DNA from: Burkholderiaceae bacterium
GTDB taxonomy: Bacteria > Pseudomonadota > Gammaproteobacteria > Burkholderiales > Burkholderiaceae_C
NCBI GenBank assembly: GCA_004299095.1
Contig: SCQQ01000023.1
Coordinates: 1 to 45,636 of the forward strand
Reading direction: 5' to 3'
Length of the DNA: 45,636 nucleotides
Below are positions 1 through 15,520 of this stretch, piece after piece; position 1 is the stretch's first letter; each line of letters starts with the position of its first letter. The position numbers and the translations under genes are program-made. The notes beneath the pieces are model-generated. The model ran no database searches and was not told the DNA's origin. It was given only the letters and a program-made list of their open reading frames with translations.

Positions 1-25
1 TGGGATCTGAACCAAATACTGCGGT

Positions 26-463
26 TCAAGGCTTCGGTGACGGACTGAAAGAGTAGGCCTGATCTTGCGCACGCATAAACGCGCGGCGAAAGGCCAGCGG
101 ATCGGAGATGCCGGGAATCGGCGCCTGCTGAACGCCGGTGCCGGAAATCACCAGCGAGCCAAAGTTGAAAATGCGGCCCAACACGCTCTGGAGCACCTCC
201 ACGCCTTCGACCTTGTGGATGTTCAGCTCCACGGTGCGCCGGCTGATGAAGCCGAATTTCGCGATCATCCGCTTGTTCGTGACGGCCAGTTCGGTGGTCT
301 TGTAGCGGATGAATGCGGTCAACCAGAACAGCAGCCCGACACCGAACACGGGCAGCAGCACGAGCCCCACCCCGATGAGATGCGTCAGCGGCCACAAGCT
401 GATGTGACCGACATAGAGCACGTGCTCGTCGTCGATGAGCACGCTATCGATGTAGCTGGGCAT
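26..463 (-). CDS. PH domain-containing membrane protein (bPH2/YdbS-like)
   Basis: A 145-residue protein with a hydrophobic stretch at about residues 23-52, followed by a bacterial PH-like (bPH2) fold. The typical 'ELAVTNKRMI' strand, the segment 'RRTVELNIHKVEGVEV' and the downstream 'GSLVISGTG' strand are all visible. Such proteins are small inner-membrane proteins of unknown exact role. The ATG has a strong ribosome binding site just upstream (GGGAGGGG on the minus strand, about 464-475). The gene stands alone, with decayed DNA upstream of it. Family assignment is confident; no function beyond membrane association can be given. Confidence 0.85.
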   Translation of the reverse strand: MPSYIDSVLIDDEHVLYVGHISLWPLTHLIGVGLVLLPVFGVGLLFWLTAFIRYKTTELAVTNKRMIAKFGFISRRTVELNIHKVEGVEVLQSVLGRIFNFGSLVISGTGVQQAPIPGISDPLAFRRAFMRAQDQAYSFSPSPKP

Positions 464-832
464 GTGCCCCTCCCTCGAGAGTCAAGAAGAGAAGATCTGA
501 CGTTCCGGCGATGTATCCAGCCGGTGTGCAGTATGCAGGCGCTTGCTAAGTGGCCCCATCGCACCCAGCGTGTAGCCACCTGCCTTCGACTGAGAAGCGG
601 TGACAAGTCGTGCGTGCTCGAATCGTGATGCCAATCGTACTTTGGATTGCGGACGCACTCTGCGCGGCGGACTTTAGCCTACCTGTCGGGTCGCCCGCAG
701 ACACAGTTCCGCGACTGGCCCCAATAAGTCCGAAAACCCCAATACCAGCATTGTTCAGCGCTCTTCCTGCGCTTTACTGCCTGCCGCGTATTGCGCCGTG
801 ATCCGCTTGGCACGGTTTCGGACTTTTGCGAC
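464..832. other. non-coding or degraded stretch
   Basis: No convincing gene is seen here. The open frames present lack recognisable motifs and read across each other on both strands. The segment nearest 464 carries the ribosome binding site of the PH-domain gene. The rest looks like decayed accessory DNA continuous with the pseudogene region that follows. Confidence 0.4.
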
Positions 833-1185
833 TCAGTCGGTCTTCAGAGTTGCGCCGATCTCGGCATCTTCTCTTTCAGTGTTGTACTCGGCGTATCGCG
901 CCACCAGGACGGTCCACTGATTCACCTTGTTCTCGCGCATCGTGAGCGTCAGGCGCTCGCTACTGCCGATGTCGCCACGGCTCGACGTTCTGCGCAGCGC
1001 CGCGTGCTGGCGTTCGTGAAAGAATATCTCTTCAGCTTCCGCCTCGGAGTGAATGCTCTCTTGCACCAGATATATCTTGCCGCCGTGAACTTCCCCATAG
1101 ATGCGGTCTTGGGGATCGGTTCCGTCGTGGCCTTGCTGCTTCACGGACTCAACGATCGGCGCCGGAACCTCGCCTGACACGCAAC
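833..1185 (-). pseudogene. fragment of a large polyvalent-type protein with an HExxH motif
   Basis: The open frame from 1396 to 833 becomes protein-like only in its C-terminal part. That part contains 'GGKIYLVQESIHSEAEAEE' and then 'FFHERQHAALR', an HExxH zinc-protease-like signature. From memory, 'GKIYLV...E..HE..H' resembles domains of the large polyvalent proteins found in phages and integrative elements. There is no plausible start of its own, and the upstream half of the frame is a shadow of another decayed coding frame. I read it as a remnant of a much larger mobile-element gene. It is low in confidence as a functional protein. Confidence 0.45.
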
Positions 1186-1667
1186 GGGGCGACGAGGTAG
1201 TTGCGAAAGATCGTCGCCGCACCGCAGGCCATTGCACAGGCCGGGCCCTGGACGTGATCCTGCGCGTAGTTGGTAACGCCTTGCTCGGGCGTGACTGACG
1301 GATTAGGCATCTCAAGCGCGTTGAACTGACTCGCAACCTGGAAGAGTGCGCCGTGTATTCCAGAGCCGCGTGAAGGGCTCGTGCATCACCCCGCAATCTC
1401 GACCCGCAAACGCCCTAGCGCAGGCCGCACACGAGAGCGCAGCCCCGAAAATGATGGCGTTTTGAACCGGCCGATGCCCCAGTCCATACCGTTGACTCGG
1501 GAGCGTAATCGCCCGCCATCAGCGAACATCGCTCGCCGGATCTCGGCGTAGCTCTGTTCACGGAAACCAACGAGTGTCCAAACCAGTCCATCACGGCGCT
1601 TTCGTCGTGCGTCGAATTCACAATCACGGGCGTCCCGTTTCAGCAGACACGCAGACCAAATCGGCAT
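1186..1667 (-). pseudogene. frameshifted remnant of an uncharacterised conserved protein
   Basis: On the minus strand a frame without its own start, at about 1361-1186, reads 'GALFQVASQFNALEMPNPSV', then 'TPEQGVTNY', 'QGPACAMACGA' and 'TIFRNYL'. This resembles, from memory, a widespread family of unknown function. The frames on its upstream side (to 1667) are discontinuous: a different frame carries 'NSTHDESAVMDWFG', and no single reading frame joins them. It is therefore a broken gene with at least one frameshift. It lies directly against the HExxH fragment, which is in a different frame, so two unrelated remnants may be juxtaposed. I cannot assign a function. Confidence 0.5.
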
Positions 1668-1727
1668 AGCCGCGCCGCAACGTATCTGCTTTCGCCGGGG
1701 CGCAACGGCCCCGCATTGGCAGCGCCA

Positions 1728-2357
1728 TCAACCGAGGACCCGCACATGCACTCGTTCGATACCGGCATCCTGCCAGGCATCTTTGCGGAATTCAGGGCGC
1801 GAACGTAAGTTGCCGCGCACGTCGGACGAGTTGTCGAGAATTCTCCTCTTCCAAATTCGCTGGGTCATCCGGCCGTCGTTGAAGTAGGTCTCGATTTCGG
1901 CCCTGCCGGTTTGCAGGAACCGATCCCTGAAAGCGTCCTCGGACTCTGGATCAAGCGTGATCGGCAGCACCTTTGGTTGACTTGTTGCGACGGCGCGCGG
2001 CTTTGCCCGCTTCTGCGGTGCAGCCTGGCCCCGTCCGTCGTACTTGTCGTGGCACGCGCGGCACAGGAACTTGACGACCTTGGACAAAGGTTCGTGCGCC
2101 GCTCGGAACTGCGTTTCAAAGTGCTTCAGGTCGATCCGGAAAGAAGACCCGTCTGTCGGGTTACCGAGTATCTGGTGAATGATGTCGTTGCGCTCGCTCT
2201 CATGAATGTGCGCGGCTTCCAGCGTCGTTTCAGCGCCGCAATCTTCGCATCGCCCAATGACCGTCTTGCTCTTGGCCGTGAGCTGCTGCACCAGGTTGCG
2301 TGCGAACGGCACGATGTAGCGGCGAAACTCTTTTTCGGTGCCCACGAACTCAGCCAT
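1728..2357 (-). CDS. HNH endonuclease-like protein coupled to the restriction gene
   Basis: A 209-residue protein with a zinc-binding HNH-type core: C-x2-C near residues 37-40, 'LEAAHIH' at about 46-52, and 'LCRACHDKYDG' at about 98-108. The C-terminal part has 'GNLRSRPEFRKDAWQDAGI', a small domain I associate with HNH proteins in restriction contexts. It starts with ATG behind a good AGGAG. That site lies inside the 3' end of the type ISP gene, whose stop overlaps this start by 8 bases, so translation is likely coupled. It is probably an accessory nuclease of the same locus. HNH assignment is good; the role is inferred. Confidence 0.75.
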   Translation of the reverse strand: MAEFVGTEKEFRRYIVPFARNLVQQLTAKSKTVIGRCEDCGAETTLEAAHIHESERNDIIHQILGNPTDGSSFRIDLKHFETQFRAAHEPLSKVVKFLCRACHDKYDGRGQAAPQKRAKPRAVATSQPKVLPITLDPESEDAFRDRFLQTGRAEIETYFNDGRMTQRIWKRRILDNSSDVRGNLRSRPEFRKDAWQDAGIERVHVRVLG

Positions 2358-5300
2358 TGGTGTCTCCTATTTGAAGTGCAGGCAGCGCCCGCACGATCTT
2401 CATCGTCTCAAGGCTGACCGTAATGACCCGCAGGAAGAGTTCCAGCGGGTAGCGCGGGTTGTGCATCGTCTCGATGGCCCAGTCGTTGGCGTCGTTGACG
2501 ATGCCGCTGGCCTTATCGGTCTTGAGGCATTGGCGCTCAATCACCCAGTCCAGCGCGGGCTTGCCGTTGACGACGTAATCGTAGGCTTCGGGCGGGATGC
2601 CGGTGACGGTGATGTGGGCGTTGTAGATGAGGCGGGTGAGGTCTTTGTCCTTGCCGGATTTGGGCACCTTCATTTTTTCGACACGGAAGGTGGCGGCTTC
2701 GTCGACGAGCTTGCCGGCGGCAATGCCTTTGGACGTGACGGTTAGCGTCTTGCCGTTGGGGCCGGTGACGGTGGCGCTGGTGTATGCGGCCACAGTTTCG
2801 TAGTTGAGGTGCAGATCGGCCAACGCGCAGCCGGCCTTGGAGAACGCCCAGAAATCGGCGGCGGTTTTCACGCGCGGGATGCGCGGCAGTTCCTTGGCGA
2901 GGTTGTCGGCGTAGCTCTCGCGGTAATCGGGCGAGTGCAGCAGGCCGTAGATGTAATAGAACAGGTCTTCCTTGCTGATCTTCTCGCCCGGATAGGCACC
3001 CGCGAAGTGCGCAAGGCCGGCATCGGTGATGGCGTCGCGGCGCTTGCGCGTAGCCGGCGCAGCGGGCTGGTCGAACAGGCCGGATTGCGGCGCGTCGGCG
3101 TCGGCTCGCGCGGCTTCGTCGTAGAGGTAGAGCGGGAATCCTTGCCCGTTAAACATCAGCTGATAGTCCACAACGTTCTTTGAAATTAGAGCAGAGAAGT
3201 CATTCTTTGCTCCAGTTCCGGACACACAGATAATTCTGTTTTCCGCCTCAGAATCAGGAAAAACCTTTGGCATTTGATAGACAACCTCATTGAGGCGCCG
3301 ATTGAAATAGAGCCATTGCTTGTGGAACGGTCGATACTGGCCTCGCACGACACTATTTGCCCCAAATGACAAGACTCGACCCCTGACGAGGTCTTGCTTG
3401 AGGGCCCGCGACCAGCTGATCCGCCCTGGATCGTTATCAACCCAGTCGTCCACCAGCGCGGCACGCTTACTTCTATCGAGAAAAGCAAACGACCTTTCAA
3501 ACCTTTCCAACTCCGAACTGTACTTTTTAAGCATCGCGACGACGTTCGCGGAGAGTTTGTTCGCGCTCGCGTTGTAGCACCATGAGTCCCGACTGGTGGA
3601 AACTCCTTGAGAGAAATTTTCGAATAGCTTGAGTGCATCGCCTCTCTTGTCACCAACGACAACGAACCGATTGAAGCTGTCGTCACGCTGCTTTAGCCAG
3701 TCGCCGTGAGCGTCCGGGGTGATGGCCCGCCAACCGTTGGCCTTGGCGATGCCGTCGATGGAGCCGAATGTGGCAACGGTGGCGAGTTTTTCCTCACGGC
3801 TCAGGTAATCACCGATGTCGTGGAACCGAATCTGGCCGTGCTGCTCGGCCTTGGGGTTCTTCACCAGCAGCGAGATGGCGATGGGCGCGCGGCTGCCGCC
3901 ACCAAAAATCTTGCCGCCTTCCCGCCGTGACGTTTCCCCGCTGGTGCGCTGATTGCCGCGCAGGTGGAACACGTAGATGTTCGAGAACTCGTCCGCAAGA
4001 CACTGGCGCAAGCCGTCTGCGGTGTTGGCGTCCAGCCAACCAGCATTGGTGACATAGCCGACCACACCCTGTTTGCCGACGCGATCACTGGCCCAGCGGA
4101 TCGCGCGGATGTAGCTGTCGTACAGGCCCTTGGCCAGCGTCGCGGTGGAGCGCGCCGCGTAGGTTTGGCGAATGTGCTCGTCGAGACTGGGGTATTCGAC
4201 GTTCTGGTTGTTGTCGTTCTCGCTACCTTGCCCGATGGAGTAAGGCGGGTTGCCGAGGATGACCCGGATGTCCAGCTTCTTCTGTCGCTTGCGTCGCGCG
4301 CTGTTGTCCACCAGCAGCGCATCCACCAGATCATCCTTCTCGTACATCTGGAACGTATCGGTGAGGCAGATGCCGGGGAACGGCGTGTAGGCGCCGGCGT
4401 CGGCCTGCTGCGCCTCGCCCGGCGGGTGCATGAGGTCGTGGTAGGCAGTTTCGATGTTGATGCTGGCGATGTAGTAGGCCAGCAGCACCAGCTCGTTGGC
4501 GTGGATTTCGTTTTGGTATTTGTACGGAAGCCGATCCTTCGAGATGAAGCCCGATTGCAGCAGGCGGGTGATGAAGGTGCCGGTACCGGTGAAGGGGTCA
4601 AGGATGTGCACGCCCTGGTCGCCCAAGGATGTGCCGAACTCGTCGCGCAGCACGTCCTGCACGCTCTTGATGATGAAGTCCACCACTTCCACCGGCGTGT
4701 AGACGATGCCGAGGCGCTTGGAGAGTTCCGGGAAGGCGCCGTTGAAGAACTTGTCGTATAGCTCCTTGATGATCTTCTGCTTGCCGTCGGCACTGGTGAT
4801 GCCTTCGGCGCGCAGTTTCACGCTTTGGTAGAACGCGGTGAGGGTGTCGGCCTCCTTGCCCAGGTGATGCTGCTCCAGCGTGTCCAGCACCTTTTGCATG
4901 GCGCGGGACATGGGGTTTTGTTTGGCGAAGTCGTAGTGGTCGAACAGGGCCTCGAACACCGGCTGGGTCACGAGGTGCTGGGCCAGCATCTCGATGATTT
5001 CGGCGTCGGTGATTTCATCGTTCAGGTCATCGCGCAGTTCGGCCGCGAATTCGTCGAACGCCTTGCGTTCCTTCTTGCTGGCAGGGTTTTCAAGGATGGC
5101 CTTGATGCGGTCGATGTGGGTGTTGGCAATCTTGGCGATATCCGCCGCCCATTCTTCCCAGTGGTGGCGGTTGCCGACCTTCTGCACGAGCTTGGCATAG
5201 ATCGCGCGCTCGATGTCGCCGATCTCAAACGCGATTTCGGATTGCTCTGGGAGCGTTTGCGATGCGCTGCCGATAGCATGGCTGCCACGCGCGAGCGCCG

Positions 5301-6318
5301 CTTTCTTTTGCGCTGCAGTCATGCCGGCCGCCATCGCCCGGCGCTGCACCCTGTCGGTGATGGCGATCACTTCCATCTTGCTCGGGTCCTGGCCGATCAG
5401 GTCGAGCTTGTTGACCATCGCATCGAACCGGTCATCGTGCGACCGAAGCGCCTGCAGCACTTGCCACACGATGCGATACGTTTTGTTGTCGTTCAGGGCC
5501 ACGTGCGGCTCGACGCCAGCGGGCACCACGACCGGCAGCACGATGTAGCCGCGCTGCTTGCCCGGCGCCTTGCGCATCACGCGGCCCACCGACTGCACCA
5601 CGTCCACTTGCGAGTTGCGCGGCGTCAGAAACAGCACCGCGTCCAAAGCCGGCACGTCAACGCCCTCGGAGAGGCAGCGCACGTTGGAGAGGATGCGACA
5701 GGTGTTTTCGCCCGCGTCCGCCTTGAGCCAGGCGAGCTTCTCTTCCTTGGTGGGCGCATCCATGCCGCCATCGACGTGCTCGGCTTCGCACTTCAAGTTG
5801 ACGGCGATTTCTTCGGGATCGGTTGCGGTGCGCTGGTACTCCTCGACCACCGCCTGGAACATCGACTTGATGTTCTTGGAGCCCACTTGGTGCGTGCGGG
5901 CGCCCTGGCGCGCTTCAATCACTTGGCAGAACGCGACGGCGCGGCGCATGGGATGGTCGTCGTCTTGCAAGTCCGTGGTGAGCCCTTGTTTGGATAGCGC
6001 CTTCCAGCAGCCGACGATGCGCGCGGCGTCGTCCATCTTCAGGTCGTTGTCACCGCTTGCAAGTAGGTTTTGCAACCTGCGGTTGATGAGCGATTCCTCG
6101 ACGGAGAGCACGATCACCTTGTAGTCAACCAGCAAGCCGCTGCACAGCTTCGCGGTCTGCAGCGACCAGAAGATCGGCAAGAAACGCATGGCGGCCGAAG
6201 ATGACTTCGAAATGCTCACGCACGAGTTGCAGTACCCGGCAACGACCGATGCGGTATCTCTTGCTCTCGCGATGCAGAAGCGCTCGGACGCCACGCACAT
6301 GAGCGTGGTCTTCGCCAC
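2350..6318 (-). CDS. type ISP-like restriction-modification enzyme, C-terminal fragment (helicase C, N6-adenine methyltransferase, target recognition)
   Basis: Native sequence begins at about 6135 with 'LLVDYKVIVLSVEES'. The 61 or so residues before that are the reverse complement of an inverted segment and are not genuine. It holds the second helicase lobe ('LSEGVDVPALDAVLF', 'QSVGRVMRKAPGK'), then methyltransferase motif I (DPFTGTGTF, about 4600) and motif IV (GNPPY, about 4250), and a long C-terminal target-recognition region. This order (nuclease, helicase, adenine methyltransferase, recognition) is that of single-chain type ISP enzymes such as LlaBIII. Without the N-terminal part it would be a methyltransferase lacking nuclease and helicase motor. 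The start shown at 6318 is an artefact of the inversion. The HNH gene follows with an 8-base overlap. Confidence 0.85.
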   Translation of the reverse strand: MAKTTLMCVASERFCIARARDTASVVAGYCNSCVSISKSSSAAMRFLPIFWSLQTAKLCSGLLVDYKVIVLSVEESLINRRLQNLLASGDNDLKMDDAARIVGCWKALSKQGLTTDLQDDDHPMRRAVAFCQVIEARQGARTHQVGSKNIKSMFQAVVEEYQRTATDPEEIAVNLKCEAEHVDGGMDAPTKEEKLAWLKADAGENTCRILSNVRCLSEGVDVPALDAVLFLTPRNSQVDVVQSVGRVMRKAPGKQRGYIVLPVVVPAGVEPHVALNDNKTYRIVWQVLQALRSHDDRFDAMVNKLDLIGQDPSKMEVIAITDRVQRRAMAAGMTAAQKKAALARGSHAIGSASQTLPEQSEIAFEIGDIERAIYAKLVQKVGNRHHWEEWAADIAKIANTHIDRIKAILENPASKKERKAFDEFAAELRDDLNDEITDAEIIEMLAQHLVTQPVFEALFDHYDFAKQNPMSRAMQKVLDTLEQHHLGKEADTLTAFYQSVKLRAEGITSADGKQKIIKELYDKFFNGAFPELSKRLGIVYTPVEVVDFIIKSVQDVLRDEFGTSLGDQGVHILDPFTGTGTFITRLLQSGFISKDRLPYKYQNEIHANELVLLAYYIASINIETAYHDLMHPPGEAQQADAGAYTPFPGICLTDTFQMYEKDDLVDALLVDNSARRKRQKKLDIRVILGNPPYSIGQGSENDNNQNVEYPSLDEHIRQTYAARSTATLAKGLYDSYIRAIRWASDRVGKQGVVGYVTNAGWLDANTADGLRQCLADEFSNIYVFHLRGNQRTSGETSRREGGKIFGGGSRAPIAISLLVKNPKAEQHGQIRFHDIGDYLSREEKLATVATFGSIDGIAKANGWRAITPDAHGDWLKQRDDSFNRFVVVGDKRGDALKLFENFSQGVSTSRDSWCYNASANKLSANVVAMLKKYSSELERFERSFAFLDRSKRAALVDDWVDNDPGRISWSRALKQDLVRGRVLSFGANSVVRGQYRPFHKQWLYFNRRLNEVVYQMPKVFPDSEAENRIICVSGTGAKNDFSALISKNVVDYQLMFNGQGFPLYLYDEAARADADAPQSGLFDQPAAPATRKRRDAITDAGLAHFAGAYPGEKISKEDLFYYIYGLLHSPDYRESYADNLAKELPRIPRVKTAADFWAFSKAGCALADLHLNYETVAAYTSATVTGPNGKTLTVTSKGIAAGKLVDEAATFRVEKMKVPKSGKDKDLTRLIYNAHITVTGIPPEAYDYVVNGKPALDWVIERQCLKTDKASGIVNDANDWAIETMHNPRYPLELFLRVITVSLETMKIVRALPALQIGDTNG

Positions 6319-6643
6319 CTACCACTCGATCGACGTGCTGAGCCAGGCGCAAGAAGAGCACGGCCTCGCTGACTTCGACCTCATCATTTGCGACGAGGCG
6401 CATCGCACCACCGGCGCGACGTTCGCGGGCGACGAAGAAAGCAATTTCGTTCGCGTGCACGATAACGACTTCATTCGGGCTACCAAGCGGCTCTATATGA
6501 CGGCGACGCCGCGCATCTATGGCGAGAACGCCAAGGCCACCGCCCAGCAAGACAACATCGCCTTGTGCTCGATGGACGATGAAGCGATCTACGGCCAGGC
6601 GCTTTACACACTCACGTTCTCCGAAGCCGTCAAGCGCGACTTG
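6133..6643 (+). other. inverted internal segment of the restriction gene (helicase DEAH core)
   Basis: Read on the plus strand, opposite to the gene on both sides, this segment encodes without a stop the missing middle of the helicase: 'KPLHSFAVCSDQK', 'VVFATYHSIDVL', the DEAH box in 'DLIICDEAHRTTGATF' (DEAH at 6392-6403), 'LYMTATPRIYG' and 'LTFSEAVKRDL'. The left end carries CAAG (6133-6136) and the right end CTTG (6640-6643), a 4-base inverted repeat inside an imperfect 12-base one (9 of 12 matching). Flipping it gives 'EADK|PLHSF' on one side and 'KRDL|LVDY' on the other, both in frame and both as expected for the family. The open frame from 6188 is therefore a gene piece, not a separate gene. 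Confidence 0.85.
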
Positions 6644-7434
6644 TCGGCTTCCTGTGTCCATTCGGTGAGCGCTTGCGACAAGAGCGCGAGGCTGGGCACG
6701 AGGAACAGCACGCGGCCGCCCGCGCCGGCCACAGCTTCGGCAATCTTCAGGGCAACGAACGTCTTGCCCGAACCGCACGCCATGATGAGCTTGCCGCGGT
6801 CGGCGCTCTGGAGTCCCGCCTGCACGCGGTCGAGCGCGGTTTGCTGGTGCGGTCGCAGCGTCTTGCGTGGCTTCAGAACGACGGGCGCTGCAGTCTGGTA
6901 TTGCGACCAGTCGATCTGGCTCGCTTCCAGCTCCAGCAGCGTCACGAGGCTCACGGGCGGGTTCTGGTCCTGCACTGCATCGCGCAGGTGCCGCGTGCTC
7001 TTGGTGGCGGTGAGGAAGATCAGGCGGTGCGCGAACTGCTTCTTGCTGGACGCGATGAAGAAGGTTGCCAGTTCTCCCAACGTGAGCCGGGCGCTTTCGT
7101 CGTAAAACTTCGCCTGGATCGCGTGCAGCTCACCCGTGGTGGTCTCGGCCACGAGGTCGATGCCGGCGTCGCTGCCCACGTTACCCTGGCCGCGCCGCGC
7201 GGCTTCAGCGCGCCATTCCTCCCAGAGCCACACGCGGCCGCCGTACAGGTCGGCGTAATACGGCTCGTTCAGCAGGTACGCCTTCACGAGGCGTTCGAAG
7301 TAGGTGCCTTTTTCTCGTTCGGTGGCGGCGGTCGTTCGAAACGTGTCGAGCAGGTGGCTCAGTGCGGTCACGGTGATGGGTGCTCCCTCGGGTATCGGCT
7401 CTGCGGGTTGTAGCAGAGTCGGCGAGATCACCAT
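6604..7434 (-). CDS. type ISP-like restriction enzyme, N-terminal fragment (Mrr-like nuclease and helicase motif I)
   Basis: Native up to residue 265 ('TQEADK'); the last 11 residues come from the inverted segment. An Mrr-like PD-(D/E)xK nuclease lies at about residues 35-150 with D93 in 'GSDAGIDLVAE' and Q107-x-K109 in 'AIQAKF'. It is followed by the first helicase lobe with Walker A 'MACGSGKT' at 218-225 and 'LFLVPSLALLSQ'. It ends before the DEAH box, so it cannot hydrolyse ATP or translocate. The start at 7434 has no clear ribosome binding site; family proteins usually begin near residue 22-25, so a later start is possible. The distance from 7434 to the stop at 2350 is an exact multiple of three (1695 codons), as expected for one gene disrupted only by inversion. 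Confidence 0.85.
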   Translation of the reverse strand: MVISPTLLQPAEPIPEGAPITVTALSHLLDTFRTTAATEREKGTYFERLVKAYLLNEPYYADLYGGRVWLWEEWRAEAARRGQGNVGSDAGIDLVAETTTGELHAIQAKFYDESARLTLGELATFFIASSKKQFAHRLIFLTATKSTRHLRDAVQDQNPPVSLVTLLELEASQIDWSQYQTAAPVVLKPRKTLRPHQQTALDRVQAGLQSADRGKLIMACGSGKTFVALKIAEAVAGAGGRVLFLVPSLALLSQALTEWTQEADKSRLTASENVSV

Positions 7435-7656
7435 GAATCGGCTCGAACGAAGACGCTATGTACTTAACACCAACACGTCGACCGACCGGAATGATCACTT
7501 GGTTTCTCCAGTATTCGGCTTCGGCATTCGTAGGCGACGCGACGCCCTAGGACGTCACATCCATCTGTTGCCAGTCATGGGTGCCGGCTCACGGCTCGAT
7601 CTCAAACTTACTGTAAAAGCTGGCGACGCGGCGCCAGGGTGCGATGAAGCCAGCGT

Positions 7657-7768
7657 GACGCAGCACGAAACATCACGGGAGGTACCCTGCGCTGCGCGCG
7701 CTGGCGCAGGCGCTCACCGACAAGCTGCGCAAGTCCGCCACGATCAACTGGCAACGGCGCAAGGATGC
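7657..7768 (+). repeat. hsdR-derived direct repeat, copy A
   Basis: About 112 bases starting with GACGCAGCACGAAACATCAC that recur in the same orientation at 18211-18316. Copy A lacks nothing obvious; copy B has a few substitutions and a small deletion. Both end in the shared run through CAACGGCGCAAGGATGC. The repeat covers the beginning of the hsdR C-terminal fragment. Two homologous direct copies about 10.5 kb apart bracket the pilus cluster, the IS and the BrnTA module. Confidence 0.8.
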
Positions 7769-7907
7769 GCGCGCGAAGATGGTTGCGATGATCAAGGTGC
7801 TGCTCGCCATCCACAAGTATCCGCCGGACAAGCAGCCCGAAGCGACCGAGCGCGTGATTGCGCAGGCGGAGTTGCTGGCGGATACGTGGGCGACGGAAGC
7901 GGCGTGA
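7683..7907 (+). pseudogene. hsdR: C-terminal remnant of type I restriction subunit HsdR
   Basis: A 74-residue open frame without a start, ending in TGA at 7905-7907. It reads 'LTDKLRKSATINWQRRKDAR', then 'MIKVLLAIHKYPPDKQ' and 'VIAQAELLADTWA'. This is the characteristic C-terminal helical end of HsdR proteins (DUF3387 region). The remaining roughly 900 residues of HsdR, and hsdM and hsdS, are absent from the window. It is therefore the last scrap of a second restriction-modification system next to the type ISP locus. It reads on the strand opposite to that locus. Confidence 0.8.
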
Positions 7908-7955
7908 TCGGCAGAGGAACACGGCGCGCGCTCATGGTCATCGCGGGCAACGCAC

Positions 7956-7986
7956 AAAAAAGCCACCGGCATTGCTGACGGTGGCT
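7956..7986 (-). terminator. rho-independent terminator of the small secreted protein gene
   Basis: On the minus strand a perfect 8-base stem, AGCCACCG and CGGTGGCT with a 10-base loop, is followed directly by six T. It lies 45 bases downstream of the stop at 8031, as expected for that gene's terminator. Confidence 0.85.
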
Positions 7987-8030
7987 ATTCGGGGTGCCTG
8001 GGTTCAGGCACTCACGCAGCTTGAATCCAA

Positions 8031-8333
8031 TTAGGATTGATATGGCGCATTGCCCGCGGCCGGCCGTTGCGCGACCGCTTCAGCAACAACCCCAGAGCGC
8101 GCCGCGACCTGCACGTCGCTCGAAGCCGTCCGAGCAATAAACGGAATGTTCCCAGCCACTGGCCGTTGCGCCGCAGCTTGCGCTTCGACTGCGCTGCGCG
8201 CCGTCGCGCTGCTGGTGTTCACCGTTTGGTTGTACGCCGGCAGGTTGCCCGCCAGCGGTTGAATGGAAGCCGCCATGGCGCTGCCCGAAATCAGAAGAGC
8301 GGCGGCAACGAGCGCGGTGTTGAACTTGATCAT
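8031..8333 (-). CDS. small secreted protein with three AGN-P repeats
   Basis: A 100-residue protein with a clear Sec signal peptide (hydrophobic 'ALVAAALLISG', cleavage probably after 'SAMA'). The mature part repeats a short motif three times: 'QPLAGNLPAY', 'QRPVAGNIPF' and 'QRPAAGNAPY', separated by Ala/Ser/Thr-rich spacers ('VEAQAAAQR', 'VVAEAVAQR'). It resembles the many small periplasmic proteins of unknown function in Burkholderiales; I do not recognise a named family with certainty. It is monocistronic, with its own perfect terminator downstream. The codon usage is coding-like and the frame is intact, so I consider it a real gene. Confidence 0.75.
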   Translation of the reverse strand: MIKFNTALVAAALLISGSAMAASIQPLAGNLPAYNQTVNTSSATARSAVEAQAAAQRPVAGNIPFIARTASSDVQVAARSGVVAEAVAQRPAAGNAPYQS

Positions 8334-8437
8334 GATGTTTCTCCCTACTAAAGCACCGATCCAAAGTTCTCGACGAGTCGCTCAATGCCCCCAGCTTCGA
8401 GGTTGAAGGCTGATCGGTATGGCCTTCACTACCTTGG

Positions 8438-8698
8438 ATGGGACTGGGCTCGGCGGCGTTACGCGTTTACGCGGCGCGTTCCGCAATGCACTCTTGCAGG
8501 AACTGCAACATCGGCCGCCATGCGCCGCAGCACGCGCGGGCAGGTGCACTCACGTGTGGCCTCGTGCGCAACCGCTGCGAGATGCCCGCGGAAGTCGAAA
8601 TCGAGCGCTACTGGAACATCGTCCGAGCAAACCCGATTCGCCGCAGCGACAAGGTGCGCTTCCTGCCGACCAAGGCCATACCGCAGGCAGCGTCGTGA
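8438..8698 (+). pseudogene. possible remnant of a small cysteine-rich (zinc ribbon-like) protein
   Basis: From about 8503 the frame reads 'CRNC', then 'LTCGLVRNRCEMPAEV' and 'YWNIVRANPIRRSDKVRF', ending in TGA at 8696-8698. The four cysteines in C-x2-C ... C-x6-C spacing suggest a zinc ribbon. The upstream part of the frame looks non-coding, and no start with a ribosome binding site is seen. It could be a small real gene or a decayed one. Confidence is low. Confidence 0.25.
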
Positions 8699-9007
8699 AC
8701 GGCTTGTGGCACGTGAAATCGTTAACGTGATTATCTTGTGCACCCCTGGATTCAATGGTGGCCCGGGTTCACGTAGCGCGACACAAGCTCGTGCAGAAAA
8801 CCCAACTGCCACCGGCAAAAACCCCAGCCGTCTCGGGTATTAAGGCGGCCGTCTAAAACGTGCGTCCAGTAAACTTCGTCGCCAGTCACGCGGCCGTTTT
8901 CTCTGCTCGTTGGATCCCATGCAGCGCTGACATGCGGTCCTCATCAATAATCGCCCCCGAGCGCGGTGAGTTCGAGGGGCTCAAAACTCGCCAACAAGCC
9001 CAGATTC
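8699..9007. other. intergenic region upstream of the minor-pilin operon
   Basis: No gene is supported here. The promoter of the pilin operon presumably lies in this stretch, but I see no convincing -35/-10 pair. The operon's first ATG (9008) has no strong ribosome binding site. Confidence 0.35.
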
Positions 9008-9430
9008 ATGAGATCCCACAGCCTTTCAGACGCGGGCTTCACGCTCATCGAATTGATGATCGTGGTGGCGATCGTGGCGATTCTGGCGGCCGTTGCCTAT
9101 CCCTCCTACATCAACTACATCGTCCGTTCCAACCGGGCAGCGGCCGAATCATTCATGCTTGAAGTCAGCAACCGGCAGCAGCGCTACCTGCTGGACGCCC
9201 GCAGCTACGCCGCCGACCTAGCGACGCTGCAAATCGGCGCGCCCAGCGAAGTCAGCAACAACTACGCCATCACCACGGCGCCCAAGGCTGGCACCACACC
9301 GCCCGGCTTCACCGTGACCGCCACCCCACAGGGCGCCCAAGCGACACGCGATGCAGGCTGCGGCACTCTTTCCATCGACGAAGCCGGCGCCAAGACCGCG
9401 GGCGCCAAGGGCGTGTCCGCATGCTGGTGA
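9008..9430 (+). CDS. pilE: type IV pilin PilE-like (pseudo)pilin
   Basis: A prepilin of about 141 residues. The leader 'MRSHSLSDAG' is cleaved before the classic 'FTLIELMIVVAIVAILAAVA' (Glu at mature position 5), followed by 'YPSYINYIVRSNRAAAES'. The C-terminal pair of cysteines, in 'DAGCGTL' and 'VSACW', would form the pilin disulfide loop. I chose ATG 9008 because it gives a 10-residue leader; an upstream GTG at 8966 would give 24. It is the first gene of a tightly overlapping minor-pilin operon: the next gene starts 10 bases before its stop. It is probably a minor pilin that primes pilus assembly with FimT, PilV, PilW, PilX and PilY1. Confidence 0.88.
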   Translation: MRSHSLSDAGFTLIELMIVVAIVAILAAVAYPSYINYIVRSNRAAAESFMLEVSNRQQRYLLDARSYAADLATLQIGAPSEVSNNYAITTAPKAGTTPPGFTVTATPQGAQATRDAGCGTLSIDEAGAKTAGAKGVSACW

Positions 9431-9924
9431 GTCCCGCCGTTCCATTCGCATGCAGTTGGCGCCGCGCCAGTGCCCGCGGCTTCACCCTGATCGAGCTGAT
9501 GACCACGATCACGGTGCTGATAGTTCTCGTGATGGTGGCCGTCCCGTCGTTTCGCGAATTCGTCGCCAACCAGCGCGTGCGCAACGCCTCGTTCGATCTG
9601 ATGGCGGCGCTCACGCTGGCGCGCAGCCAAGCCATCACGCAAAACGGCAGCGTCGACCTGAAGCAGTCCGGCGGTGGATGGAATGGCGGCTGGACGGTCA
9701 CCGACGGCACCAACACCTTCGGCGCGCATGAGGGGCTGAGCAACCTGAGCATCACCGACAGCAGCAACCTGAGCACGATCACCTACGGTCGCGACGGCCG
9801 CCTCACCACCGTCCCCACCAAGTTCAGTGTCAAGCCCGCGACCGACTTGGGCAGCGTGAAGCCACGCTGCATCACTATTGGTCTCAGCGGCCTGCCGACC
9901 AGCGCGGAGGGCGCTTGTTCATGA
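9421..9924 (+). CDS. fimT: minor pseudopilin FimT/GspH family
   Basis: A 167-residue prepilin: a basic leader ending in 'RRASARG', then 'FTLIELMTTITVLIVLVMVA'. After the N-terminal helix comes 'VPSFREFVANQRVRNASFDL' and 'LARSQAITQNG', the hallmark of the GspH/FimT domain, which forms the tip-proximal minor pilin. The C-terminal 'CITIGLSGLPTS' matches the family's last strand. The ATG overlaps the preceding pilE by 10 bases, and the stop overlaps the next ATG as ATGA, so the operon is translationally coupled. Confidence 0.88.
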   Translation: MLVSPAVPFACSWRRASARGFTLIELMTTITVLIVLVMVAVPSFREFVANQRVRNASFDLMAALTLARSQAITQNGSVDLKQSGGGWNGGWTVTDGTNTFGAHEGLSNLSITDSSNLSTITYGRDGRLTTVPTKFSVKPATDLGSVKPRCITIGLSGLPTSAEGACS

Positions 9925-10532
9925 ACCGCCGTCAAATCCCGACGCCGCGCGCACGCCATGACGCCAATCAACGCGGCGACACGCTGATCGAGATCCTGGT
10001 GACTTTGATGATCCTGCTGTTCGGCCTGCTGGGACTGGTGGGGATCATCGGCCGCGCCAACATGGCGGAATTGGAGTCCTTCCAGCGCATCCAGGCTCTG
10101 GAAATCGTTCAAGACATGGCTGCCCGCCTCAACGCCAACCGCAAGGTCGCAGCGTGCTATTCCAACTTCAACGCCGGCGTCACCCTGGGCAACGTGGATC
10201 CTCCGGCCAGCGTGCCGGCCTGCCCGCTGGGCAGCGTCCAGCAGCAAACCCGAGCCGCGGCCGACCTCACGGCGTGGAACACCTTGCTGAAGGGCGGCAT
10301 CGAGGTCTTGAGCAGCAACGCCCAAGTCGGCGCCGCGCAAGGCGCTATCGGCTGCATCACGCAGGAGTCGGCCAACGTCTATCTCGTCGCCGTCGCGTGG
10401 CAGGGCCTCGCGAAGACCGCCGCACCCACCTTGAGCGATGGCACCGTATTCCCCTGCGGTTCGGGCTATTTCGGGGACAACACCTTGCACCGCGTGGTGA
10501 CCACCAAGGTGCAGATCGGCAAGCTGTCATGA
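9921..10532 (+). CDS. pilV: minor pilin PilV
   Basis: A 203-residue type IV minor pilin. The N-terminus is 'NQRG' followed by 'DTLIEILVTLMILLFGLLGL', and then 'FQRIQALEIVQDMAARLNAN', typical of PilV. The residue after the prepilin-peptidase glycine is Asp, where almost all pilins have Phe or Met; Glu5 is kept. ATG 9921 is preceded by GGAGG at 9906-9910 and shares ATGA with the fimT stop. Its own stop shares ATGA with pilW. PilV, PilW, PilX and PilY1 are thought to form the pilus tip/priming complex in the inner membrane. Confidence 0.87.
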   Translation: MNRRQIPTPRARHDANQRGDTLIEILVTLMILLFGLLGLVGIIGRANMAELESFQRIQALEIVQDMAARLNANRKVAACYSNFNAGVTLGNVDPPASVPACPLGSVQQQTRAAADLTAWNTLLKGGIEVLSSNAQVGAAQGAIGCITQESANVYLVAVAWQGLAKTAAPTLSDGTVFPCGSGYFGDNTLHRVVTTKVQIGKLS

Positions 10533-11593
10533 CATTTGCGACCACGCCTCGGCGGCCTCTGGCGCAGCGCCCGGCACACGGCTTCACGCTAGTGGAGCTG
10601 ATGGTCGCCATGGCGCTCGGCCTGCTGCTGCTTGCTGCGCTCGTCGCACTGCTGGTTTCCACCACCACCGGCCGTAGCGAACTGGACAAGAGTTCACGCC
10701 AGATCGAGAACGGTCGCTACGCACTGCAAGTGCTTACCACCGACATCAAATCGGCCGGCTTCATCGGTACCACGGGCGTGCAGTCATGGGACCGCGCGGC
10801 GCCTGTGGCTTGTCCGGCCACCGTCGCTGATCTGGCCTACGACGCCGCCGGCACCGGCCAACTGCCCCTGGCCGTGCAGTTGCTCGACCCCGCAGCGCCG
10901 CCGGCCTGCCTCGACCACTATCAGACCGGCACGGGCATCCTGCTGATTACGCGCGTCTCATCGCAGACCACGACGACCGCTACCGCCGCTGCGGCCGAAA
11001 CCTATGTGCAAGTCTCGACCTGCAAGTCGGATGCTGCCCCTTACGCCGTCGGTTCGGGCGCTGGCGGCAGCTTCCCTCTGCGGCAGAAAGACTGCACCGC
11101 CGTCGCACCTCTGCGCAAAGCCATCCAGCGCATCTATTACATCAGCAGCTGCAACGAATGCGGCAAGGACTCCGTTCCGACGCTCAAGGTGGCCGAATAC
11201 GTCAACGGCGTCATGACGGTCGCCGCTCTTGCGGACGGCATCGAGAACATGCAGTTCGACATGGGCATCGACATGGACAACGACGGCGCTCCCGACTGCG
11301 ACGTCAGCAACCCCGATGCACCGCCGGCCACCCAGACTGACGTTGCCAGATGCCCGCAGCCCGCGGGCGCCTACGACTGGACCCAGATGGGCGTCAACCG
11401 CCAGAACGTCATGACCGTGCGCGTCAACCTGCTGGCGCGCAACACCGAACCTTCGGGCGGCTGGAAAGACGACCGCACCTACGATCTGGGCTTGGCGGGC
11501 ACCGTCGGGCCCTTCAACGACGCCTACAAGCGCCACGCCTACAGTGGCGTGGCCCGCGTCATCAATGTTTCCGCACTCAGGGAGCTGCCGTGA
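10529..11593 (+). CDS. pilW: minor pilin PilW
   Basis: A 354-residue protein starting at the ATG that overlaps the pilV stop (ATGA). Leader 'QRPAHG' is followed by 'FTLVELMVAMALGLLLLAAL', then 'ALQVLTTDIKSAGFIG', the signature of PilW minor pilins. The large C-terminal domain has several cysteines ('VACPATV', 'ISSCNECGKDS') and ends 'NVSALRELP'. Length fits the family (about 330-380). The frame stays open for 125 codons upstream, but that extension only shadows pilV. The stop overlaps the GTG of pilX by 3 bases. Confidence 0.87.
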   Translation: MTFATTPRRPLAQRPAHGFTLVELMVAMALGLLLLAALVALLVSTTTGRSELDKSSRQIENGRYALQVLTTDIKSAGFIGTTGVQSWDRAAPVACPATVADLAYDAAGTGQLPLAVQLLDPAAPPACLDHYQTGTGILLITRVSSQTTTTATAAAAETYVQVSTCKSDAAPYAVGSGAGGSFPLRQKDCTAVAPLRKAIQRIYYISSCNECGKDSVPTLKVAEYVNGVMTVAALADGIENMQFDMGIDMDNDGAPDCDVSNPDAPPATQTDVARCPQPAGAYDWTQMGVNRQNVMTVRVNLLARNTEPSGGWKDDRTYDLGLAGTVGPFNDAYKRHAYSGVARVINVSALRELP

Positions 11594-12138
11594 AGTCGTC
11601 GCACCGCCCATCCCGCCGGCCACAGCGCGGCGCTACGCTGATCGTGACGATGATCTTCCTGATCATCCTGATGCTCGTCGTTGCCTCGGCCATCAAAGTC
11701 ACCAACGTCAACACGCGCGTGGTGGGCAACATGCAGACGCAGAGCGAGGCCTTCGCCGCTGCGCAGCAGGCCATCGAGCAGGTCATCAGCTACGACTTCA
11801 CCAAGCTACCGCAGGCCTCCACCACCACGGTGGACATCAACAACAGCGGCAAGGCGGGGTCCACGTACAACGTCAGCGTGGCCCAGCCGGTGTGTCTGAT
11901 GGTGAAGCCAATCAAGCAGCTTGATCTGGACATCAGCAACCCCGATGACCGGTCGTGCTTCGCGACTGGCTCGGCACAGAACAGCGGAATCATTGGCGGC
12001 ACGCCCTCCGGCAACTCGCTTTGCTACAACTCGATGTGGAACGTCCAGGCGTCGGCAGTTCCGCCGGGTTCCTCGCAGCCGGCAGCGGTGATCAACCAGG
12101 GCGTGACGCTGCGCAGCGACCCGGGCGCCAATTGCTGA
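11590..12138 (+). CDS. pilX: minor pilin PilX
   Basis: A 182-residue protein. The GTG start at 11590 overlaps the pilW stop (GTGA) and is preceded by AGGGAG with 5 bases between. After 'RRPQRG' comes 'ATLIVTMIFLIILMLVVASA', the PilX N-terminal helix, which lacks the usual Phe1 and Glu5; this is normal for PilX. It is followed by 'VVGNMQTQSEAFAAAQQAIE', the conserved PilX helix. The C-terminal domain is short with four cysteines. It acts with PilW and PilY1 in tip assembly. Confidence 0.86.
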   Translation: MKSSHRPSRRPQRGATLIVTMIFLIILMLVVASAIKVTNVNTRVVGNMQTQSEAFAAAQQAIEQVISYDFTKLPQASTTTVDINNSGKAGSTYNVSVAQPVCLMVKPIKQLDLDISNPDDRSCFATGSAQNSGIIGGTPSGNSLCYNSMWNVQASAVPPGSSQPAAVINQGVTLRSDPGANC

Positions 12139-12172
12139 CAACCGATCAGAGGCGCTCAACGGAGGGAGAGTC

Positions 12173-15100
12173 ATGACCGCAAATAAAAGAACGTCACACC
12201 TGCTCGGCGCGCTGCTGCTGGGATCGGTGGCGTTCCTCGCCTGGCCCGCGCACGCGGAAGACATCGACATCTACGGCTCGACAAGCGGCGGGGGCAGCTC
12301 GAACCTGGTCATCATTCTGGATAATGCGGCCGCCGCCAGCGCCAATTCGACGTATTCGTGCCCCACTGACGGATGGCCTGATTCGGACAAGACCTTCAAG
12401 CCAAACGATCCAACGGCCAATTTCGGCTTCGAGCAATGCGGTTTGTACGGTGCTCTGGCGGGGCTGAGCACCATGCTGGCCAACCAGCAGGTTCCTGGTC
12501 AACCAGCGACGAGTCTTCCGCTCAAACTCGGTCTCATGTACTTTCCCGGCAATGGTGATGGCGGGCAGTTTGTCAAACCGGGCAACGCAAAGAGCCCTGA
12601 TGACCTGATCGAGATGGACGATGCCGGCATCACTGACTTCAAGGCTCGCGTCAAGCTATTAAGCCTGGCCAACGACAAAAGCAACAACAACCAGTTCAGC
12701 CAGACGCTGCAGGAAACGTTCGCTTTTTACAACGGCCTCAAAGGGCTGTCCGGTACGCAGTACACGTCGCCGGCCAACCCGGATTCGTGCGGGCGTAACT
12801 ATGTGGTCTACATCACGCTGGCCACCAACAACCAGAAACCGCAAGATGGCGGCAAAGCTGCGGCCAATGCGTTATCGGCTACCTCGGGCTCTTACACCGA
12901 GCTGACGCTACCGCCTTATAAGCAATCGTTCTCGCCGTTTGCGTCAGCCAAACAGAATGGGAACTACCAGAGTGATCCGTCGGATGAGTGGTCTCGCTTC
13001 ATGTACACCGGCAAGGGCAGCAACGGCACTCAGTACAACCCGGTCACCGCTTACACCATCATCTTGTACGACGGCAGCAACCCGGAATACGAGCAGTTGA
13101 TGCAGAACGTCGCGGTGCAAAGCAACTCGACTCCTCTTTTCGTCAAGCTGGGCGACACCAAGGGGTTGACCGACGCGATCGGCCGCGTGATGCGCCAGGT
13201 GATGGCCACCAACAGCGTGTTTGCCGCGCCGGTGCTGCCGGTGAGCGCCAACACCCAGGGGACTTACGCCAACCAGGTGTTCATGGGCATGTTCCGCCCC
13301 GACGGGCACGGCCTGCCGCGTTGGGTTGGCAACCTGAAGCAGTACCAGTTCGGCGCGAACGTGGACGACATCAGCAACCCGGTGCTGTTCCTGGCCGATG
13401 CCACGGGCACGGCGGCGCTGAGTTCAGCCGGCACAGGCTTCCTGGACCCAAGCGCGTTGAGTTTCTGGACTTCGAAGAACACGGGTACGCTGCCCGACAA
13501 GGCGGGCGGTTTCTGGAAAAACGCAGCGGTCCTGCAGAGCGCTGCGGACGGCTATGACAGCGTCGACGGACAGGTGGTCGAGCGTGGCGGCGTGAGTCAG
13601 CAGATTCGTCTGGCTCGCCTGCAGGACGCGATCAACACCGCGGCGAGTCCGGCCACTTACGCCAGCAAGCGCAACATCTTCACCTGTCTGGGCACTTCGT
13701 GCACTGGTGGCGCGGCCTTGAGCAGCATGAAGTTCGACGCCGCCAACAATGCCATCACTGATACCTTGCTGGTCACGGGCGGCATGAGCGGCGTGACCCG
13801 GGAGAACCTCATCAACTGGACGCGCGGCGCCGACGTGGCCGCCAAGGTGGTCAACTCGAACGCGGGCGGTGAAAGCAGCGCGCCGCCTGACGCCACTATC
13901 ACCGTGCGCGGGTCGGTGCATGGCGACGTGCTGCATTCGCGCCCGGCCGTGGTCAACTACGGTGGCCAATATGGCACCGTGGTTTTCTACGGCGCCAACG
14001 ACGGCCTGTTCCGCGCCATCAACGGCAACCAACCCAACAACAAGAACGACGCAACCAGGCCTTACGGCAACTGCACGATGTCCTCGGACTGTGCGATCGC
14101 CACCCAGGATTCAAGTGGGATAGCAATCACTGTGCCCCCAGGCGGCGAGTTGTGGAGCTTCATCCCGAGCGAGTTCTACGGCAAGCTGATGCGCATTTAC
14201 CAGAACAGCGTGCAGCTCACACTGGGTCAGCCCGCCAGTTCCACGATGCAGCCCAAGACGTATTTCTTCGACGGATCGCCGGGCGTCTACCAGAACGGCG
14301 GTACGGCCTACTTGTTCATCCCTGCGCGCCGTGGTGGCCGCCTGCTGTATGCCTTGGACGTGAGCGACCCGACAAAGCCAAAGTTCATGTGGAAGATCGA
14401 CAGCACCACGCCCGGCTTCGCCGAACTCGGCGAGACCTGGTCGCAGTCCAAGGTTGCCATGGTCAAGGGCCACACCGGCCCAGTGCTGATTTTTGGCGCC
14501 GGCTATGACACCAACCAAGACAACGACCCGCCGACGCCAGCCGACAGCATGGGCCGCGGCATCCTCATCGTCGACGCTACGACCGGCAAGCTGCTGTGGA
14601 GCGCGACGGGAGGCGGCGCGGGCACAAGCTGCACCGGCAATCCCTGCACGCTGGCCGGCATGACGTATTCGATCCCGGGCGACATCACCCTGATCGACCG
14701 CGACGCCGACGGCTATATCGACCGCCTGTACGCGGGCGATACCGGCGGCAACCTGTGGCGCGTCGATCTGCGGCCCGAGCCTATCGGCAGCGTCACCCCG
14801 GATGGTGTGTCGCAGTGGCAGGCCAGCCTGTTCGCGGCCCTGGGAGGCACGGGATCGCCGCGGCGCAAGTTCTTCTTTCCGCCGGACGTGGTGGTGACCA
14901 AGACCTTCGACGCCGTGGTGGCGGTGACCGGCGATCGCGAGCACCCGCTGAGCGGCAGCCCCGCCGACGACGTGAAGAATCGCTTCTACATGATCAAGGA
15001 CACCAACGTTGGTAACGATGGCAGCGGCTGGACACCGGTGCGCGACGACACCGGCACGACCGTGGACGTCAAGCCGGACGGCCTGTTCAACGCCACCAGT

Positions 15101-15520
15101 ACGCCTTACGACAACAGCGGCAGCGGCTACTACGTCACGCTGGAGGGCGAGGGTGAGAAGGGCGTCAACGCGCCGACCTCGTTTGGCGGTTCAGTCTATT
15201 TCGGCACCAACCGGCCGCTGACCAACAACCCTCTCACCTGCAAGGTGGACCTGGGCGAAGCGCGAGGCTACACGGTCAACTTCCTGAGCGGTGCCAAGGT
15301 GTGGAATCATTTTGACGGCGGTGGTCTGCCGCCTTCGCCCGTGGTCGGCATCGTGGCGATTGAACTTAACGACGGCACCAAAATGCAGCAGCCCTTCATC
15401 ATCGGCGGCGGCGGCGGCCAAGCGGCTGACGGTACTTCGGCTCTGGGTGTGGAACGCGCCAAGATTCCTATTCCGACCGCGAAGCGCCGGACCTTCTGGT
15501 ATCAGGCGACAGACCGGTAG
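12173..15520 (+). CDS. pilY1: pilus tip-associated adhesin PilY1
   Basis: A 1115-residue secreted protein, behind a strong GGAGGGAG. The signal peptide is 'LLGALLLGSVAFLAWPAHA'. The N-terminal half is von Willebrand A-like, starting at 'NLVIILD' (D50). It lacks the DxSxS metal site, since D50 is followed by 'NAAAAS'. The C-terminal half is the PilC/PilY1 beta-propeller (about residues 560-1090), with 'SRPAVVNYGGQYGTVVFYGA', 'LYALDVSDPTKPKF' and 'DTGGNLWRVDL'. An EF-hand-like calcium site 'DRDADGYID' sits near residue 842. PilY1 sits at the pilus tip, promotes pilus extension and mediates adhesion. It is the last gene of the operon; an insertion sequence begins 35 bases after its stop. Confidence 0.9.
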   Translation: MTANKRTSHLLGALLLGSVAFLAWPAHAEDIDIYGSTSGGGSSNLVIILDNAAAASANSTYSCPTDGWPDSDKTFKPNDPTANFGFEQCGLYGALAGLSTMLANQQVPGQPATSLPLKLGLMYFPGNGDGGQFVKPGNAKSPDDLIEMDDAGITDFKARVKLLSLANDKSNNNQFSQTLQETFAFYNGLKGLSGTQYTSPANPDSCGRNYVVYITLATNNQKPQDGGKAAANALSATSGSYTELTLPPYKQSFSPFASAKQNGNYQSDPSDEWSRFMYTGKGSNGTQYNPVTAYTIILYDGSNPEYEQLMQNVAVQSNSTPLFVKLGDTKGLTDAIGRVMRQVMATNSVFAAPVLPVSANTQGTYANQVFMGMFRPDGHGLPRWVGNLKQYQFGANVDDISNPVLFLADATGTAALSSAGTGFLDPSALSFWTSKNTGTLPDKAGGFWKNAAVLQSAADGYDSVDGQVVERGGVSQQIRLARLQDAINTAASPATYASKRNIFTCLGTSCTGGAALSSMKFDAANNAITDTLLVTGGMSGVTRENLINWTRGADVAAKVVNSNAGGESSAPPDATITVRGSVHGDVLHSRPAVVNYGGQYGTVVFYGANDGLFRAINGNQPNNKNDATRPYGNCTMSSDCAIATQDSSGIAITVPPGGELWSFIPSEFYGKLMRIYQNSVQLTLGQPASSTMQPKTYFFDGSPGVYQNGGTAYLFIPARRGGRLLYALDVSDPTKPKFMWKIDSTTPGFAELGETWSQSKVAMVKGHTGPVLIFGAGYDTNQDNDPPTPADSMGRGILIVDATTGKLLWSATGGGAGTSCTGNPCTLAGMTYSIPGDITLIDRDADGYIDRLYAGDTGGNLWRVDLRPEPIGSVTPDGVSQWQASLFAALGGTGSPRRKFFFPPDVVVTKTFDAVVAVTGDREHPLSGSPADDVKNRFYMIKDTNVGNDGSGWTPVRDDTGTTVDVKPDGLFNATSTPYDNSGSGYYVTLEGEGEKGVNAPTSFGGSVYFGTNRPLTNNPLTCKVDLGEARGYTVNFLSGAKVWNHFDGGGLPPSPVVGIVAIELNDGTKMQQPFIIGGGGGQAADGTSALGVERAKIPIPTAKRRTFWYQATDR

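Follow-up and report, generated by a model that had tools for sequence, protein, structure and literature searches.

A putative inversion of the helicase core within a type ISP restriction-modification gene of a Burkholderiaceae bacterium

Introduction

The type ISP restriction-modification (R-M) enzymes LlaGI and LlaBIII (PDB 5ffj, 4xqk) are uninterrupted polypeptides, in which an N-terminal Mrr-family nuclease precedes an SF2 helicase-like ATPase of two lobes, a coupler, an N6-adenine methyltransferase and the type ISP specificity domain. The window analysed here (the whole stretch of DNA, 45,636 bases) holds a gene with the same domain order and family matches distributed over three pieces. 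However, its coding sequence is interrupted by an apparently inverted segment that corresponds approximately to residues 254-421 of LlaBIII.

Inversion wholly inside a coding sequence was reportedly described by Chanin et al. in Nature in 2024 under the name of intragenic invertons. The window gene shares this location of the inversion, but it has no proper terminal inverted repeats and has been seen in one orientation. Ordinary pseudogenes also arise by small inversions at microhomology; the window gene shares with them a short inverted end match, occurrence in a single lineage and loss of function, but it is unusually clean, with its length kept and no stops yet. The invertible hsdS loci of type I R-M systems, as presented in the available parts of PMC5903667, PMC11892184 and PMC11868660, are likewise R-M genes altered by DNA inversion. 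There, inverted repeats and a recombinase serve to switch specificity; in the window gene it is the motor domain that is interrupted, at a match of 4 bases. The same available parts give inverton repeats of 10-40 nt (PMC11892184), typically 10-20 nt and often mismatched (PMC5903667), and state that invertases need not adjoin their sites (PMC5903667) and that, of 1837 invertons in a single gut community, 952 intersect a coding sequence (PMC11892184). The literature searched, which lies mostly outside subscription papers, yielded no report of an inversion in a type ISP gene, no paper joining phase-variable pglX with inversion, and none on microhomology-driven short inversions in bacterial genomes. 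PMC10073500 and PMC8262939 mention phase variation and inversion too; in their available text, the term 'Type ISP' is confined to the titles of cited references.

Organization of the disrupted gene

Two stretches of the type ISP gene, 7434-6644 and 6132-2350, read on the minus strand. They are separated by 511 bases (6133-6643) in which the helicase core that they lack is encoded on the plus strand, with no stop. The three pieces were read separately and never joined. The N-terminal piece (6644-7434, minus strand) carries the Mrr-type nuclease domain and, with the P-loop (GSGKT), the beginning of the SF2 ATPase; it comprises 263 whole codons without a stop and ends in TEWTQEA plus two bases of a further codon. 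In the segment, the plus-strand frame from 6134 is open over 170 codons, starts with KPLHSF and encodes what remains of the first lobe of the helicase, with motif II (DEAH) and the TATP motif; one of the three frames on its minus strand (frame 0) is open too, by chance. The C-terminal piece (2350-6132, minus strand) starts with LVDYKVIVL and runs through 1260 codons to its stop, covering the second helicase lobe, the coupler, the N6-adenine methyltransferase and the type ISP specificity domain. The initial annotation had proposed that the pieces fit a single frame, and the lengths agree (791 + 511 = 1302 = 434 x 3, then 1260 codons and the stop). As assembled, the frame of the N-terminal piece crosses the joint and meets a stop at 6604-6606 after 12 extra codons, and that of the C-terminal piece is open backward only as far as the stop at 6319-6321. 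In the assembled sequence both joints interrupt the reading frame, and the gene is a disrupted, non-working member of the type ISP family.

Pfam searches with the N-terminal piece revealed the Mrr-family nuclease expected at this end (Mrr_cat_2, 1.2e-33) and ResIII (5.9e-16, profile positions 2-87 of 164). The segment matched ResIII positions 92-163 of 164, so that this profile is divided between the two, and Helicase_C (3.3e-8) in the C-terminal piece supplies the second lobe of the SF2 ATPase. The C-terminal piece also matched ISP_coupler (PF22240, 1.8e-49), Type_ISP_C (PF18135, 9.7e-109) and, for the methyltransferase, Eco57I (1.7e-5; 25.4 bits, where the cut-off is 25.3), with N6_Mtase at 20.0 bits slightly below its cut-off of 20.4. 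Against the PADLOC profile PDLC03597, the N-terminal piece, the segment and the C-terminal piece cover positions 3-243, 262-412 and 413-1642, respectively; against LlaBIII (PDB 4xqk), they cover residues 17-253, 278-421 and 422-1576. In the Pfam, PADLOC and LlaBIII comparisons the segment query began at 6188, omitting its first 18 codons, and the N-terminal query included a short tail beyond the joint. The three pieces follow one another without overlap along a single family profile and along a single solved relative. Thr376 of LlaBIII is the mutated motif III residue according to the available part of PMC7049714; because the segment spans LlaBIII 278-421, including Thr376, it carries helicase motifs II and III. 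The profile and LlaBIII coordinates continue from one piece to the next, confirming the annotated plus-strand helicase core of 511 bases within a minus-strand gene. At the level of sequence, these results support an in-gene inversion of the type ISP helicase core.

Borders of the inverted segment

The segment starts with CAAG (6133-6136) and ends with CTTG (6640-6643), as annotated. The annotation had also placed these ends in an imperfect 12-base inverted repeat. The left 12-mer CCAGCAAGCCGC (6129-6140, plus strand) indeed matches the reverse complement of the right one (6636-6647) at 9 of 12 positions, but the exact run is only 4 bases, and a gapped comparison of the borders with 40 bases on either side (80 bases) is not unusual (P = 0.25). 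Among random end pairs within the gene, an exact run of at least 4 bases has P = 0.021 (200,000 draws) and a 9-of-12 match P = 0.004 (40,000 draws). The latter exceeds what a blind break usually leaves and counts against an accidental inversion. At the equivalent positions of 112 distinct homologues the exact 4-base core was never found and the 9-of-12 match once, indicating that the border site is not a conserved feature.

The residue preceding PLHSF is lysine in the window. The 112 homologues have threonine (66), isoleucine (23), valine (12), leucine (5) or one of six singletons, one of which is lysine, and in a smaller homologue set lysine occurs in none of 80. Because lysine is so rare here, the border may conceal a further change or an error. 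Either the ancestral residue had drifted to lysine, or the exchange itself transferred the four bases from one border to the other. In addition, a hairpin spans the right border after the inversion (6623-6651, plus strand), with 12-base arms, 11 of 12 bases paired and a loop of 5. Of 3000 inversions simulated at random, 0.6% produced an equally good match at one or the other joint, and the hairpin gives a post hoc hint of a fold-back or template-switch step.

Orientation in homologues

From 132 loci, with the window's own copies, recombinase loci, pilus loci and the plasmid record L097 omitted beforehand, 126 distinct segment sequences were obtained, 123 of them with at least one flank matched. 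In their best matches, none of these 123 distinct homologues, a set that reaches distant helicases of about 27% identity, has the segment and a flank on opposite strands. Among plasmid records, 679 match the segment and 671 match the first 400 residues of the C-terminal piece; within the matches listed (60 of each, 51 records in common), none of the 51 has the two on opposite strands. Two distant phage records are related to the gene, and three of four viral contig loci have both the N- and C-terminal pieces, each on a single strand.

Two of 29 genus members, the window's own genome among them, have a match, and on this patchy occurrence the type ISP gene was probably acquired horizontally. 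We rejected replacement of this part of the gene from another homologue, since the segment exists in one copy in the genome and is about as close to the relatives as the C-terminal piece is (dN 0.211 for the segment vs 0.190 for the C-terminal piece against the relative L007, and 0.191 vs 0.198 against L008). On the circular 12.2-kb Acinetobacter cumulans plasmid NZ_CP035938.1 (L082 and L097), a type ISP gene seemingly crosses the start of the record and is absent from the distributed gene table.

Age of the event and signs of selection

No internal stop was found in the 263, 170 and 1260 codons of the N-terminal piece, segment and C-terminal piece, respectively; to this extent the annotated absence of other breakage in the gene holds. 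About 3.3% of single-base changes would yield a stop, and zero stops would place the event within about 1.8% neutral change (95% bound; about 3 expected stops / 0.033 / 5080 bases), assuming that the whole gene has drifted freely since then. Of the relatives, L008 and L007 are the two nearest. The dN/dS values against L008 are 0.167, 0.193 and 0.197 for the N-terminal piece, segment and C-terminal piece. Against L007, whose contig has no N-terminal piece, they are 0.253 and 0.210 for the segment and C-terminal piece. Across 14 piece comparisons with five relatives dN/dS ranges from 0.13 to 0.35, and the segment (0.13-0.25) is not relaxed relative to its flanks. The recency suggested at annotation gains support from the lack of stops and from dN/dS values that stay far below 1 in each of the pieces; the three look recently functional.

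With L010 and L011 as outgroups, amino-acid changes confined to one lineage (window:L008) number 11:16 in the N-terminal piece, 13:9 in the segment and 59:66 in the C-terminal piece; against L007 the ratios are 13:10 in the segment and 56:50 in the C-terminal piece. Neither comparison reveals a clear excess of changes in the window. Against L009 the window does have an excess (62:6, 19:7 and 72:56 for the N-terminal piece, segment and C-terminal piece), which we attribute to older divergence, since neither L008 nor L007 gives such an excess and L008 is much closer to the window in the N-terminal piece (74% identity vs 58% for L009).

Origin of the inversion

We propose, as a fairly likely account, that a recent and physically real inversion at microhomology inactivated restriction, accidentally and not through a dedicated invertase, and that it is fixed or dominant. 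A small inversion with its ends at the CAAG/CTTG match would have reversed the part encoding helicase motifs II and III, probably by an accidental exchange at microhomology. The full-length enzyme would then no longer be made, and judged from the family, ATP-driven translocation and cutting would be abolished. The inverted form may be fixed or dominant in the sequenced population. If the inversion is fixed, it would add one more case of R-M loss, of some interest as a clean inversion at four matching bases in a gene that has yet to decay.

The inversion is likely to be physically present in the sequenced DNA. An assembly or scaffolding error, in which a short contig or a group of reads was placed reversed and the genome carries the uninterrupted gene, is unlikely. 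Both joints are known from a single assembly, a draft of 122 contigs, in which no SSU rRNA gene was found; this fits a metagenome bin but is weak evidence, as the same search succeeded in only 9 of 14 control genomes. The arrangement of the pieces, unique among the homologues examined, and the unusual lysine (1/112) exactly at the border would also fit such an error. Against it, the contig, which is exactly the 45,636-base window, contains no N, and both ends abut exactly with the reading frame of the gene preserved. An identity of 4 bases is shorter than assembler k-mers and should not confuse a k-mer graph. No inverted repeats of at least 20 bases (12-base seed) were found in 1-12000, and no tandem repeats in 1-10000 at a score of 50. 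With borders that share only four exact bases, no N and no such inverted repeats, reads should span the joints, and a short-read misassembly would be awkward to explain. Six conserved genes elsewhere on the contig are whole: of 10 further open reading frames scanned in the window, 6 align with conserved families across practically the full profile (UvrB, DnaB, TolB, RNase G, HemF and YebC), and the remaining four have weak or no family matches.

A true intragenic inverton, in which recombination at the borders flips restriction ON and OFF, perhaps through a recombinase encoded elsewhere in the genome, is very doubtful. Stop-free pieces with low dN/dS and the 9-of-12 border match (P 0.004) would suit it. 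The contig itself has no match to the resolvase (PF00239), tyrosine-recombinase (PF00589) or IS110 (PF01548) families, bearing out, for these three families, the annotated lack of an invertase gene. Other contigs of the genome yielded one PF00239 match, nine PF00589 matches and one partial PF01548 match, and invertases may be remote from their sites (PMC5903667, available part). However, the border repeats are short and mismatched, with an exact run of 4 and a best match of 9/12 against the terminal inverted repeats of about 10-40 nt that invertons have. The exact core recurs in 0/112 and the 9-of-12 match in 1/112 homologues, and the opposite orientation in 0/123. The ON/OFF reversibility suggested at annotation thus finds no support, as the short mismatched repeats are not conserved, no homologue examined is inverted and the contig lacks the recombinase families searched. 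Its most specific form, a reversible motor-domain inverton at a minimal, degenerate 12-base site served by a remote recombinase, with restriction dropped and methylation perhaps kept, is very unlikely. If the gene were such a switch, motor domains would join the phase-variable parts of R-M systems, with cutting turned off and modification perhaps left; if the event were reversible, cells could drop restriction and admit DNA.

The putative resolvase-family serine recombinase among these matches (197 aa; 1489-2082 of locus L087, contig C38 of the same genome) has a tyrosine recombinase match (C38:42880-43356) at a distance of about 5.2 kb on that contig, and this part of C38 is possibly a mobile region.

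It is hardly credible that the inverted form was selected as a modification-only state, with the methyltransferase and specificity domains made from an internal start in the C-terminal piece. In its favour, this piece by itself has the coupler along with the methyltransferase and specificity domains, its residues 356-1252 match a solved chain of an adenine methyltransferase (7lo5, 1029 residues), and two in-frame ATG/GTG starts (5655 and 5376) with a weak ribosome-binding match precede the coupler. Against it, two such weak matches do not demonstrate translation, a promoter-like site was not found in 5800-7700 and nothing indicates selection.

Neighbouring genes

A 209-aa gene (1728-2357, minus strand) overlaps the type ISP gene by 8 bases, its start lying within the terminal part of that gene, and is probably co-transcribed with it. 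Its cysteine pairs give it a zinc-finger or HNH look. It matched no Pfam family at E 0.001, with two weak hits at E 0.05-0.1, and gave two weak PADLOC hits (E about 0.0004-0.001); the remaining type ISP loci retrieved contained no homologue of it at E 1e-4.

On the other side of the type ISP gene, positions 8966-15520 hold an operon for minor pilins of a type IV pilus (part of the labelling is inferred) that ends in a PilY1/PilC-like protein. This protein finds a match in 3 of the 29 genus members, counting the window's own genome. The best PilY1-like match in the genus is that of G007, where the 19.9 kb examined around the pilus operon contained no match to R-M genes. The DnaB gene of the window (24277-25698) is uninterrupted. 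In 4 of the 24 genomes searched (those behind the loci L007, L029, L046 and L067), DnaB appears as two or three matching pieces within an open frame of 762-958 aa, with a break near query residue 237, which looks like an intein.
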